In this document: piece by piece, positions 1,202 through 38,442 of the stretch
How positions within the stretch are numbered: position 1 is the stretch's first letter
How the letters are laid out: the number at the start of each line of letters is the position of its first letter
Source of the DNA: Owenweeksia hongkongensis DSM 17368
GTDB taxonomy: Bacteria; Bacteroidota; Bacteroidia; Flavobacteriales; Schleiferiaceae
DNA length: 64,000 bases
Direction: 5' to 3'
Assembly: GCF_000236705.1 (NCBI RefSeq)
Contig: NC_016599.1
Span: 2,418,001-2,482,000, forward strand
Position numbers and translations under genes: made by a program
The notes under the pieces: generated by a model
The model's input: the letters and a program-made list of their open reading frames with translations, nothing else
What the model was told of the DNA's origin: nothing
Databases searched by the model: none

Positions 1202-2401
1202 TTATTGTCCGATTTTGCTTAGTTCGCCAGAAGCAGCAGCCCAAGTCCAGCCTGCAAACTCTCCGCTATTAGCACCTACAGTGTTAGCACCTTCAGCAAC
1301 TTCAGTTACTTCAGTAGGTACGCTACCTTCAAACAGGTCAGCAAGGGTTCCTCCGTTGATAGTAACTTGGATGTTAGAAGTAGCTCCGCTCATGTCTCCT
1401 CCAAAAGATTCGAATGGAGAAAAGTCAGCAGTAGCAGCATATCCAGAAGCAAGACCGTAGAAGTATACATTTTCTAAAGCAGCATTAGTTTCTGAATCCC
1501 AGTCTACCAAGTGATCAATGTTTTCACCAGCGTAAACAGTACCATTCTTAAACCAGTGAGTTCCAGTTGCAGCAGGACCTTCAGGACCGTCAAGTTCGAA
1601 AGCAGAACCACCATTAGGAGTGATTACTACAAAGTTTTCGCAAGTACCCAACCAATCTTGGTCAGTATCAAGACCATCGTCACCAGAGTTCCAAATAAGA
1701 ACGTCAGATACACTAACAGTTCCACCGAACCACTCGATACCATCATCTTGGTTAGCTACTACTTCGATGTGGTGAATTGTGGTTCCAGAACCAACACCAC
1801 CTAAAGTAAGACCATTGATTTCGTTACCAGAACCAATGTTAGTACCACCGTGACGAATAGAAACGTAAGTAAACTCACCAGAACTGTGAGCAGGCTCAGT
1901 ACCACCGTAAAGACCGTTTTGATCAGAAGTAGGAATACCTTCAATCTGTACTTCAGTAGCTGAAGCAGAAATAGGAGCATTTCCTAAGATGATAACACCA
2001 CCCCAAAGACCGTTGTTTTCAGCATCCATGTTTGGGCTAATTACATCACCAGAAGCAATATCATCAGCGATTGTAGTAAAGATAATTGGCTCAGAAGCTG
2101 TTCCGTTTGCCATAATCTTACCATCACGGGCAATTACAAGTGCAGAAGAAATTGCACCAGCTCCCGGATTTGCCTTTATTACAGTTCCTGGCTCAATAGT
2201 TAAAGTTGCACCAGATACAGTTACACGACCATCAAGGTACCATACCTTATCAGAGGTCAAAGTTTTGTTTTCAGAAATAACTCCAGAAAGCTCAGTATCT
2301 ACTGCTGGAGTAGTAGTTTGCTTGTCGTCTTCACCACAAGAAGTAAGAGTAAAGGCAGCAGCAAAAGCGCTGAACATTACGATTGATTTAATTTTTTTCA
2401 T
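1202..2401 (-). CDS. Surface lipoprotein with parallel beta-helix-like repeats
   Basis: 399 residues. A lipoprotein signal peptide ends at LTSC, making Cys22 the lipidated residue. It is followed by Gly-Glu-Asp-Asp, and acidic residues just after the cysteine are the known Bacteroidota signal for export to the cell surface. The rest is rich in Gly, Asn and Thr with recurring short strands (for example VSGATLTIEPGTVI, GLWGGVIILG, SVSDVLIWNSGDDG), which suggests a right-handed beta-helix. No catalytic motif is recognised. It is the first gene of a pair with the TonB-dependent receptor at 1-1071, so it may be a surface ligand-binding partner. Its promoter region carries 11-bp-spaced repeats of a PhoB-box type. 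Ligand unknown; phosphate linkage is inferred from context. Confidence 0.8.
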   Translation of the reverse strand: MKKIKSIVMFSAFAAAFTLTSCGEDDKQTTTPAVDTELSGVISENKTLTSDKVWYLDGRVTVSGATLTIEPGTVIKANPGAGAISSALVIARDGKIMANGTASEPIIFTTIADDIASGDVISPNMDAENNGLWGGVIILGNAPISASATEVQIEGIPTSDQNGLYGGTEPAHSSGEFTYVSIRHGGTNIGSGNEINGLTLGGVGSGTTIHHIEVVANQDDGIEWFGGTVSVSDVLIWNSGDDGLDTDQDWLGTCENFVVITPNGGSAFELDGPEGPAATGTHWFKNGTVYAGENIDHLVDWDSETNAALENVYFYGLASGYAATADFSPFESFGGDMSGATSNIQVTINGGTLADLFEGSVPTEVTEVAEGANTVGANSGEFAGWTWAAASGELSKIGQ

Positions 2402-2428: not shown

Positions 2429-2473
2429 CAAAGAAATGGCGGCTATGTTATGCCACTGTTAATGGAAGTTGAA
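2429..2473 (-). promoter_or_regulatory. Candidate Pho-type box and -7 element for the lipoprotein operon
   Basis: Read on the minus strand there are three hexamers at exact 11-bp spacing: TTCAAC (2473-2468), TTAACA (2462-2457) and ATAACA (2451-2446). They resemble the TTAACA repeats bound by PhoP/PhoB-type OmpR-family regulators. Nine bases downstream lies TTTCTTTG (2436-2429), one change from the TAnnTTTG -7 element. A box sitting where a -33 element would be is the usual layout of an activated promoter. Confidence 0.5.
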
Positions 2474-2550
2474 CAATACCTCAACATTCACAATCGTACT
2501 CCCCGCTTACAATCACCATTGATTATCAGGCTATAGCGCACAAAAGTCGC

Positions 2551-2631
2551 TTAACACTCTCTTAAAATCCATAATACTGCATTAAGGATTTGTTAATACC
2601 TTACCCTTTATTCAATTATAAATTACTTTTG
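2551..2631 (+). promoter_or_regulatory. Candidate Pho-type boxes and -7 element for the PhoB/PhoR-like operon
   Basis: Two pairs of TTAAnn hexamers with 11-bp spacing are visible: TTAACA (2551) with TTAAAA (2562), and TTAAGG (2582) with TTAATA (2593). A perfect TAnnTTTG -7 element, TACTTTTG, follows at 2624-2631, 23 bases before the start codon at 2654. No -33 TTG is present at the normal distance, consistent with activator dependence and autoregulation. Confidence 0.5.
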
Positions 2632-4470: not shown

Positions 4471-4722
4471 ATGAAAGTTATAAACTACACAGAATTAAGG
4501 CTTAACCTGAAACGCTGGCTTGACTTGGTTGTTGATGATTTTGAAGAATTAATCATCAAACGCAAAGACAACAGAGATCTAGTATTAATATCTCTTGAGG
4601 AATATCGCTCGCTAAAAGAAACCCAGTATTTAATGTCCGGCAAAAACCGCGATCACTTGATGGAATCTCTTGAACAAGCCAAAAAAGGAGATACGGTACA
4701 AAAAGGTCTCATTGAAGAATGA
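4471..4722 (+). CDS. yefM: Antitoxin, Phd/YefM family
   Basis: 83 residues. The N-terminal half (MKVINYTELRLNLKRWLD onward) has the YefM/Phd fold used for DNA binding and dimerisation, and the C-terminal part is the charged, flexible toxin-binding tail. It neutralises the YoeB toxin encoded immediately downstream (4-base overlap, ATGA) and, as known for the family, represses its own promoter. The 14-bp palindrome just upstream is the likely operator. Assignment rests on length, the N-terminal pattern and the clear YoeB partner. Confidence 0.9.
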   Translation: MKVINYTELRLNLKRWLDLVVDDFEELIIKRKDNRDLVLISLEEYRSLKETQYLMSGKNRDHLMESLEQAKKGDTVQKGLIEE

Positions 4723-4976
4723 GAATCACTTGGACAGCTGCGTGCTGGGATGATTATCTATATTGGCACAAGACCGATAAAAAGAAAATCAAGCGGATTC
4801 ACGAATTGGTAAAAAGTTGCCAGCGCACACCTTTTGAAGGAATAGGAAATCCGGAACCGCTAAAACACGATTTGCAAGGGTTTTGGTCTCGTAGAATTGA
4901 CACTGAACATCGTTTGATTTACAGCCACCAGGAAAATGAACTTTTGATTATCTCCTGCCGATATCACTATCAATAG
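4719..4976 (+). CDS. yoeB: Toxin, YoeB-family ribosome-dependent mRNA endonuclease
   Basis: 85 residues, very close to Escherichia coli YoeB over the whole length (WDDYLYW, RTPFEG, PEPLKH, GFWSRRI, CRYHY). The residues known to matter for cleavage are present at the same numbers: Glu46, Arg65, His83 and Tyr84. The toxin cuts mRNA in the ribosomal A site when YefM is degraded. It overlaps the antitoxin gene by 4 bases. The toxin looks intact and active. The module sits between a two-component system and a glycosyltransferase with no mobile-element remnants in view. Confidence 0.95.
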   Translation: MRITWTAACWDDYLYWHKTDKKKIKRIHELVKSCQRTPFEGIGNPEPLKHDLQGFWSRRIDTEHRLIYSHQENELLIISCRYHYQ

Positions 4977-36701: not shown

Positions 36702-38339
36702 GAAGGCTTGTCTTAAACTTTCAGCATCCAACCCACAGTCTTTCAAAAGTTCGGTGCGGCTTCCATGCTCAATAAATTTATCGGGTAAGCTTAGGCTTAA
36801 AAATTTTGTCCCTAGATGTTCATTTTTATGTAAAATAGAACCCACCGTATCGCCCAATCCTCCTCTAGGGCTGTTTTCTTCAACGGTGATTAGCACCTCA
36901 TAATTCGAAGCAAGCTCATGAATAAAGGATTCATCCAAAGGTTTTAATTGGCGAATGTCATAATGGGCATAGGCCAATTCATCCAAACCTTTTTCCACCT
37001 CCTCTCCTACTGAGCCAAAGCTCAAAACAACTTTTCCCTCTCCTGTTTTCAAGCACTTCGGTTTTGGAGCAAAGCTTTTGCTTAAAGCTCCATCATAATT
37101 TGTATTGGCTTTTGGGTAACGAATAAACCACACTCCATGATTCGCAACAGCATAATTCAACATGGCTTTCAAATCATCACCATTTCTAGGCGCCAAAATA
37201 TTTACACCTGGAAGAGTGTTTAAAAACCCCACATCGAAGGTACCGTGGTGCGTAGCACCATCTTCACCCACCAATCCAGCTCTATCCAAACAGAAAACCA
37301 TGTGAAGGTTTTGGAGGGCTACATCATGAATTATTTGGTCATAACCTCTTTGAGCAAAAGTTGAATATAAATGTACCAACGGAACAGAGCCTGCTGCAGC
37401 CATTCCCGCGGCCATAGTCACCGCATGTTGCTCAGCAATGCCTACATCAAAAGTCCTTTCTGGGAACTGCTTTTGAAAAGCACCAAAACCGCCACCAGAA
37501 AGCATGGCCGGGCTTACCACTACCAATTTTTCATTTTGAGCTCCGAGCTCGCAAATTGTATTGCCAAGCACCGTCTGAAAAGTAGTTTCCGGCTTGCCGC
37601 CAATAGAAGCTGGTTTCTCAGCCTTGGGAAACTGCTTTGAAGTAGTTACCCTAATGCATCTAGGCCCATTAACTCCAAGTGCTGAGTTTAAAGATTCCAC
37701 TACCTCTTTAACATCCAAGCCATTTACAGAGCCAAGAAAATTTACACCGAGAGATTCAAAATACTGCTTGTAATTTTTGGAAACAGAAAGGGCTCCCTTA
37801 TTATCGTCAATTGACTGATTGTTGTCGTTCAGAACAATCAGAACATCCAAATTTCTTTCACCAATGTAATTTAGAGCTTCAAAACTCATCCCGCCCGTAA
37901 GAGCACCATCACCAATTACCGCTACACGATTTCGCTTTAACTTATTTAAAATATCAGCCTCGGCAAATCCGGCCACAGCCGAAATTGAAGTAGACGAGTG
38001 CCCCGCACCGAATGGATCATATTGGCTTTCGGTACGCTTAGTAAAACCCGAAACACCACCTTTTAACCTATTAGTATGGAACTGGTTTTTACGCCCTGTT
38101 AGTACTTTATGAATGTAGGCTTGATGCCCAACATCCCAAACTAAAATATCATTTGGAGTATTTAGAGTATAATGCAGAGCCACGCTCAATTCTGTTACTC
38201 CTAAACTAGCGTTTATATGCCCTTCCTTACGCTGTGTGGTTTGGGGAACAAATGCACGTAATTCTTCACAAAGCTGTGGAAGTTCTTCCACGGCTAGGTG
38301 CTTTAAATCGGCTGGTATGTTGATTTTATCTAATAACAC
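36690..38339 (-). CDS. dxs: 1-deoxy-D-xylulose-5-phosphate synthase, short variant
   Basis: 549 residues, about 70 fewer than typical Dxs. It starts at GTG (the frame is closed upstream by a stop without an ATG). Intact parts are His71 and His114 (VGHQ, GAGHSS), the TPP motif GDGALTGGMSFEALN (144-158), catalytic Glu303 in AEQHAVT, and DRAGLVGEDGATHHGTFD. The linker between the TPP and pyrimidine domains is shortened: the usual KGxGYxPAE...FH segment with its conserved His reads TTSKQFPKAEKPASIGGK. A substrate-phosphate Arg of RYPRG is Lys (RYPKA). It joins pyruvate and glyceraldehyde 3-phosphate to DXP for isoprenoids and vitamin B6. The enzyme looks divergent but not broken. Confidence 0.88.
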   Translation of the reverse strand: MLLDKINIPADLKHLAVEELPQLCEELRAFVPQTTQRKEGHINASLGVTELSVALHYTLNTPNDILVWDVGHQAYIHKVLTGRKNQFHTNRLKGGVSGFTKRTESQYDPFGAGHSSTSISAVAGFAEADILNKLKRNRVAVIGDGALTGGMSFEALNYIGERNLDVLIVLNDNNQSIDDNKGALSVSKNYKQYFESLGVNFLGSVNGLDVKEVVESLNSALGVNGPRCIRVTTSKQFPKAEKPASIGGKPETTFQTVLGNTICELGAQNEKLVVVSPAMLSGGGFGAFQKQFPERTFDVGIAEQHAVTMAAGMAAAGSVPLVHLYSTFAQRGYDQIIHDVALQNLHMVFCLDRAGLVGEDGATHHGTFDVGFLNTLPGVNILAPRNGDDLKAMLNYAVANHGVWFIRYPKANTNYDGALSKSFAPKPKCLKTGEGKVVLSFGSVGEEVEKGLDELAYAHYDIRQLKPLDESFIHELASNYEVLITVEENSPRGGLGDTVGSILHKNEHLGTKFLSLSLPDKFIEHGSRTELLKDCGLDAESLRQAFLLA

Positions 38340-38422: not shown

Positions 38423-38442
38423 TTAACCAAACCTTAACCTAA

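Follow-up and report, generated by a model that had tools for sequence, protein, structure and literature searches.

Predicted tandem operators with 11-bp periodicity in the divergent control region of a probable phoBR-type locus of Owenweeksia hongkongensis

The DNA analyzed here (the window) is a stretch of 64,000 nucleotides from the Owenweeksia hongkongensis DSM 17368 genome (NC_016599.1, positions 2,418,001 to 2,482,000). Near its start, a divergent intergenic region of 252 bp separates a lipoprotein gene on the minus strand from a response regulator gene on the plus strand (Table 1). No Pfam or NCBIfam match was found for the lipoprotein, and the TonB-dependent receptor is predicted to be the second gene, after the lipoprotein. 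The regulator is the genome's best match to the PhoB equivalog TIGR02154 (219.5 of 296.2 bits) and, as with the equivalog NF053854 (212.7 of 270), scores below the cut-off; among solved full-length structures, RegX3 and MtrA are nearest to it in sequence. The best NCBIfam match of the kinase is PnpS, also under the cut-off, and its scores likewise fall under the PhoR cut-offs. A YefM/YoeB-type toxin-antitoxin pair (4471 to 4976, plus strand) lies between the kinase gene and a gene for a glycosyltransferase.

Table 1. Genes and predicted control elements at the divergent locus (positions are those of the window)
Feature	Position	Strand	Description
TonB-dependent receptor, 974 aa	1..1071, extends beyond window	-	Plug, TonB_dep_Rec_b-barrel, CarbopepD_reg_2; matched by tblastn in 28 of 80 loci
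Lipoprotein, 399 aa, predicted target	1202..2401	-	matched by tblastn in 22 of 80 loci; homologue in Flavobacteriaceae phoB clusters
-7-type element of lipoprotein promoter	2429..2436	-	TTTCTTTG; 8 bp downstream of operator 1; composite match
Operator 1 (predicted)	2445..2462	-	TTAACAGTGGCATAACAT; faces lipoprotein/receptor genes; top score in the 64-kb window with both matrices; equivalent in relatives
Third, weaker repeat of operator 1	2468..2473	-	TTCAAC
Operator 2 (predicted)	2551..2568	+	TTAACACTCTCTTAAAAT; upstream of regulator gene; window rank 2 (other-family matrix) and 3 (family matrix)
Operator 3 (predicted)	2579..2596	-	TTAACAAATCCTTAATGC; proximal operator of regulator promoter; window rank 13 (other-family matrix) and 4 (family matrix)
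-7-type element of regulator promoter	2624..2631	+	TACTTTTG (TAnnTTTG); 27 bp downstream of operator 3
PhoB-like OmpR-family response regulator, 227 aa	2654..3337	+	Response_reg and Trans_reg_C; predicted binder
PhoR/PnpS-like histidine kinase, 348 aa	3356..4402	+	HisKA and HATPase_c; next gene after regulator

Two opposed arrays of TTAACA-like repeats had been described in the intergenic region by the initial annotation, and the hexamers can be read directly from the sequence. On the minus strand, TTCAAC (2473 to 2468), TTAACA (2462 to 2457), and ATAACA (2451 to 2446) follow one another in steps of 11 bp, and on the plus strand the pairs TTAACA (2551)/TTAAAA (2562) and TTAAGG (2582)/TTAATA (2593) each have an internal spacing of 11 bp. 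However, the 2582/2593 pair had probably been assigned to the wrong strand. With the two matrices described below, its minus-strand reading scored higher than its plus-strand reading (7.2 versus 5.6 with the other-family matrix and 15.4 versus 10.5 with the family matrix), and the minus orientation is the one conserved in relatives, so that the three predicted operators do not simply form one array per direction. Operator 3 falls in a ATTAAnnnnTTGTTAA-like block that can be aligned through most of the same-family promoters. No role is given here to a plus-strand match at 2470 to 2487 (rank 6 in the window with the other-family matrix), which shares bases with the distal repeat of operator 1. 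A -7-type element had also been placed beyond each array: on the regulator side the match to TAnnTTTG, the Bacteroidota-type -7 consensus, is exact, and on the lipoprotein side it has one mismatch. A sigma-70 scan gave one promoter-like match (1.8 expected), the sigma-70 model being one that does not cover Bacteroidota promoters.

The 11-bp period was examined in relatives of the locus. Eighty relatives of the regulator were retrieved from genome contigs, and starts were set in 62 loci (Bacteroidota and near relatives). The upstream regions of 57 of these and of the window gave 58 regions for lag counts, the five loci left out being L027 and L053 (without upstream DNA), L059 and L060 (start ambiguous), and L050 (11-bp gap). 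Pairs of TTAACA (at most one mismatch) at a lag of 11 bp numbered 74, compared with 6.4 ± 2.9 in dinucleotide shuffles, and the harmonics of the period were also represented (28 pairs at lag 22 and 32 at lag 33; other lags, at most 27, at lag 19). The self-similarity of the upstream regions, calculated free of any motif, was also maximal at lag 11 (z, 9.1; next, 4.2). Among same-family upstream regions, which came from 29 of 38 matching genomes among 41, lag 11 was the highest of 30 lags (41 pairs versus 2.2 ± 1.3 in shuffles). Since the upstream sequences are related rather than independent, we place weight on the contrast between lags, which corrects in part for kinship, and not on z. Comparison intergenic regions of the same loci also held lag-11 pairs (41 versus 12.7 shuffled; 179 regions) and are thus no clean control; 12 of these pairs are at lipoprotein genes, 10 are at one further gene, and 19 are scattered, about half of the excess coming from cluster genes. 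The gene with 10 pairs, found in four Flavobacterium-type loci at ~2.15 kb past the start of the regulator, would by analogy be a porin like Fjoh_0542.

De novo expectation maximization (EM), given no motif and at most one site per sequence, returned TTAACATTA..TTAACAT from 54 AT-rich regions including the window, and the same motif was obtained after retraining without the window, while unrestricted EM over 57/58 regions returned only GC-rich or blurred background. Two matrices were used for scoring: an 18-bp other-family matrix, from whose training set both the window and the Schleiferiaceae locus L041 were excluded, and a family matrix built from same-family sites with the genome of the window and its nearest twin left out. 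The 252-bp region scored a P value of 0.007 with the former (400 dinucleotide shuffles). Both matrices placed the three operators among the 13 best matches of the 64-kb window (Table 1), the ranking by the family matrix being a statement of conservation because its training set contains homologous promoters. Among same-family promoters, P values below 0.05 against shuffles were seen in 19 of 21 with the divergent lipoprotein gene (own included) and in 3 of 9 without that gene. These data indicate that the arrays are most likely real conserved binding sites. Rank 2 with the family matrix was taken by TTAACCAAACCTTAACCT (38423 to 38440, plus strand), just past the end of a gene for a 1,139-aa ACR_tran efflux protein; 17 letters of it are repeated at genome position 2495091, and it is probably not a promoter site.

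The distance between operator and core promoter is fixed at the lipoprotein promoters and less fixed at the regulator promoter. On the lipoprotein side, the gap from the operator to T[AT]NNTTTG, a pattern widened to this form after the window was seen, could be scored in 13 same-family loci. It is exactly 8 bp in 11 of them, the window's own locus among these, and 69 and 52 bp in the other two (L205 and L207, respectively). These 13 belong to a set of 21 lipoprotein-bearing loci, in which a further six have an operator without a recognized -7 element and two have no operator near enough. On the regulator side, minus-strand operators lie most often 26 to 28 bp (16 pairs) or 36 to 38 bp (12 pairs) before TAnnTTT[GA], likewise a widened form of the -7 pattern, together 28 of 84 listed pairs when several -7 candidates are counted per promoter, and the two classes differ by about one helical turn. 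The plus-strand operator is separated from the -7 element by 54 to 55 bp in the window and in six same-family promoters. An activator that contacts RNA polymerase while bound to a single face of the helix would require such spacing.

Gene content was compared by tblastn over the 80 loci with flanks of up to 4 kb. In addition to the lipoprotein and the receptor (Table 1), matches to the glycosyltransferase were found in 28 loci and matches to the kinase in 67, some of the latter being generic kinases from other phyla. The regulator and lipoprotein genes are separated by the receptor gene in 16 Flavobacteriaceae loci. With six other lipoprotein-bearing loci excluded, the lipoprotein gene has an array of its own in 7 of these 16 (P < 0.05), and their lipoprotein upstream regions gave 14 pairs at lag 11, compared with 1.6. 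No site was found in the O. hongkongensis glycosyltransferase promoter (202 bp upstream; P = 0.874), and this gene could be transcribed from the preceding gene. Assignment of the receptor and lipoprotein to the regulon, as originally suggested, is supported for the lipoprotein and for the receptor behind it, and phosphate control of both would follow from their homologues.

The closest known of these homologues belong to the phoBR cluster of Flavobacterium johnsoniae (PUSIV region; PMC8115612), in which a regulator, a kinase, a TonB receptor, a lipoprotein, and a PF04101-type glycosyltransferase also occur together; arrays before the lipoprotein gene are a further likeness, seen in the Flavobacteriaceae loci described above. 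According to Table 1 of PMC8115612, low phosphate raised the lipoprotein (FII FC 9.9), receptor (8.0), glycosyltransferase (5.4), and phoB (3.1) genes of Fjoh_0541 to Fjoh_0546, whereas phoR (0.76) and OprP (-1.3) showed no significant change; we take these FC values to be log2, since log2FC is the form used in that paper's text. The same source reports that the cluster lipoproteins are repressed under N and Fe limitation and that PstSABC is absent from plant-associated Bacteroidetes; the word "mutant" is absent from its main text. The O. hongkongensis locus differs in that the lipoprotein gene, not the receptor gene, adjoins the regulator gene, in that the gap between kinase and glycosyltransferase genes holds the YefM/YoeB pair and no porin-sized reading frame, and in that the glycosyltransferase promoter lacks a site, although the gene in F. 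johnsoniae is Pi induced.

Outside the locus, motif counts alone were not informative. Genome-wide, two-half-site matches showed no excess over a reversed control (58 versus 63), and neither did composites of an operator, an 8-bp gap, and a -7 element (14 versus 21; at most two mismatches, 4 Mb). A tighter pattern separated only weakly from its reversed control (22 versus 14), and the strict pattern TTAACAN5TTAACA had zero matches in the genome. Because the count was barely separable from the control, a regulon list by motif alone was abandoned. Of the 14 composites, 9 lie inside reading frames and 5 lie upstream of a correctly oriented gene (lipoprotein, moxR, phoX, and two others).

Sites at phosphate genes had been proposed as a check on the initial reading, and the outcome was mixed. 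A second PhoX gene (2928926), whose product is T9SS sorted, shares a divergent promoter with moxR (L130, 2139 to 2427; genome, 2928638 to 2928926), and in this promoter the operator-8 bp-(-7) composites face both ways. PhoX was picked by family and not by motif, the intergenic match being already present in the genome-wide list. For this region, the other-family matrix gave a P value of only 0.070, and the family matrix gave one of 0.025. In the best 15 PhoX loci (own included), the upstream regions gave a Fisher P value of 1e-10 and the coding controls one of 0.075, values that ignore relatedness; 10 of the 15 were individually below 0.05, and moxR is retained beside PhoX in 11 of them (own included). 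The promoter of phoX1 was borderline (P = 0.050), and the Na/Pi cotransporter promoter had no site (P = 0.596). At moxR promoters from 26 other-family genomes (30 loci returned, with 4 own-family loci set aside), lag 11 gave 28 pairs versus 2.8, and 8 of 26 scored below 0.05, compared with 1 of 26 coding controls.

Two of the three exact matches to the tighter pattern sit 68 to 77 bp before receptor genes, one of which is followed by a PF01663 phosphodiesterase gene and the other by susD; the third is inside a gene. A receptor, a T9SS-sorted PF01663 phosphodiesterase, and a LamG/purple-acid-phosphatase-N protein are encoded in a row (L233, 1731 to 9703; genome, 2594230 to 2602202), and it is the receptor of this row that one exact site precedes; the row is possibly an operon for organic-phosphorus uptake. 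Overlapping matches in 11-bp register, with at least three half-sites, were also observed at genome positions 1710428 to 1710456, 38022 to 38050, and 3222648 to 3222676. The adjoining genes encode a protein of 122 aa whose start is signal-like, one of 363 aa whose start resembles that of a lipoprotein (both as judged by eye), and a TonB receptor.

Neither a PstB over the cut-off (best score, 149.6 of 343.2; the Pst search being one for PstB) nor a separate PhoU was found in the genome, in which PhoU domains occur only within one 574-aa Na/Pi cotransporter (PF02690 plus PhoU). The PstSCAB-PhoU input of classic PhoR signaling therefore appears to be missing, as judged on PstB and PhoU.

The E. 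coli Pho box consists of two or more direct half-sites (CTGTCAT) 11 bp apart that stand in place of the upstream promoter element. The sites described here share the direct half-sites, their spacing, and the replaced upstream element, but they have TTAACA as the half-site, a Bacteroidota -7 element at 8 bp, and no Pst-PhoU input that we could find. An E. coli Pho box proper was rejected on the half-site found de novo, TTAACAT versus CTGTCAT. The PhoP box of Bacillus subtilis resembles the present sites in its TTAACA-like half-sites at 11-bp steps and differs in phylum, in promoter type, and in usually having four half-sites. With direct half-sites 11 bp apart, as in the tandem sites of the OmpR/PhoB family, and with a conserved location in the promoter of the presumed cognate regulator, the arrays are of the Pho-box type, the adjacent regulator being the predicted binder. 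Of the Pho box originally claimed, the tandem operator of an OmpR/PhoB-family regulator and its autoregulation are thus supported, and the phosphate part would rest on analogy with homologues.

A further counterpart is PhoP of Riemerella anatipestifer, for which PMC9603813 describes a DAP-seq motif with the core TTTAACA, likened to that of ArcA and tied by the authors to ArcA and oxygen, electrophoretic mobility shifts (EMSA) for the phoPR and moxR upstream regions, and direct activation of moxR, batA, and batC. PMC5399024 reports that this system is conserved throughout the Flavobacteriaceae and that pstS rose eight-fold when it was deleted. The likeness to the O. hongkongensis arrays lies in the TTTAACA core, in binding before the own operon (in Riemerella), and in the moxR/bat target. 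However, Riemerella PhoP is presented as a virulence and redox regulator, and the parts of PMC9603813 considered here mention no tandem 11-bp structure and no "spacer." The motif, the target, and the reported conservation suggest that the O. hongkongensis regulator may be an orthologue of Riemerella PhoP.

Taken together, the 252-bp region can be read, with a probability of roughly 80%, as controlling a phoBR-type locus of Flavobacteriales through three tandem operators, phosphate depletion being the likeliest signal. The sequence, periodicity, conservation, and spacing of the operators are direct observations. Each operator would present two TTAACA-like half-sites at a spacing of 11 bp, or roughly a turn of the helix, to which the adjacent PhoB-like regulator would bind head to tail as a dimer. 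At the lipoprotein/TonB-receptor promoter, operator 1 lies 8 bp from the -7 element and would occupy the place of the -33 element. RNA polymerase would then be recruited by the bound regulator, in the manner of PhoB at the pho promoters of E. coli. On the regulator's side, operator 2 ends 55 bp and operator 3 ends 27 bp upstream of the -7 element, and both probably serve autoregulation. Autoregulation and control of the surface lipoprotein/receptor operon by the regulator are probable, with dimer binding and activation in O. hongkongensis being what we infer. Phosphate is likely to be the signal in O. hongkongensis as well, to judge from the homologues.

Of the other readings, the one that fares best keeps the operators with this regulator but gives it an ArcA-like use in responses to envelope, redox, or oxygen conditions (aerotolerance), with moxR/bat as the core target. 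The direct activation of moxR, batA, and batC by Riemerella PhoP, the ArcA-like motif (PMC9603813), the raised pstS of the deletion strain (PMC5399024), the array at moxR promoters across other families, and the failure to find a PstB over the cut-off or a separate PhoU all agree with it. We nevertheless consider it unlikely, since the F. johnsoniae cluster is strongly Pi induced, with its lipoproteins repressed under N and Fe limitation (PMC8115612), and since the sites also face phoX and the receptor-phosphodiesterase gene row. Repeats of 11 bp are common across OmpR-family regulators, and five further full-length OmpR-type regulators of the genome match TIGR02154 (E < 1e-40), so that one of these might bind the arrays instead; this is improbable, as the array precedes the adjacent regulator's own gene across many genomes and the best matches of the next two regulators are MtrA and copper/silver models, below their cut-offs. 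Chance likeness of AT-rich DNA without function would fit the lack of a clear genome-wide excess of two-half-site matches but is contradicted by the specificity of lag 11, the conservation, the -7 spacing, and the top window rank, and it is very hard to credit.

With the phosphate-responsive phoBR-type reading preferred, the switch itself is well conserved and of a fairly ordinary kind. More tentatively, and with the odds somewhat against so broad a picture, Flavobacteriales may have a distinct type of Pho regulon, in which there is no Pst-PhoU sensor, TTAACA tandem operators stand 8 bp from the Bacteroidota -7 element, outer-membrane receptors and surface lipoproteins are the main outputs instead of Pst, the moxR/bat envelope operon is a conserved arm sharing a divergent promoter with phoX, and the "PhoP" of Riemerella and the "PhoB" of Flavobacterium are the same regulator. 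Among the papers listed in searches of the open full-text literature, a body that leaves subscription papers and preprints outside, a Pho box for Bacteroidota is not stated in any title or abstract opening, and Bacteroidota are described as prominent contributors to phosphorus mobilization in the rhizosphere (PMC8115612). The half-site, its period, and its spacing to the -7 element provide an explicit and testable operator model for phosphate control in Bacteroidota, and one motif would join two literatures, that on phosphate scavenging in Flavobacterium and that on PhoP-dependent virulence in Riemerella.
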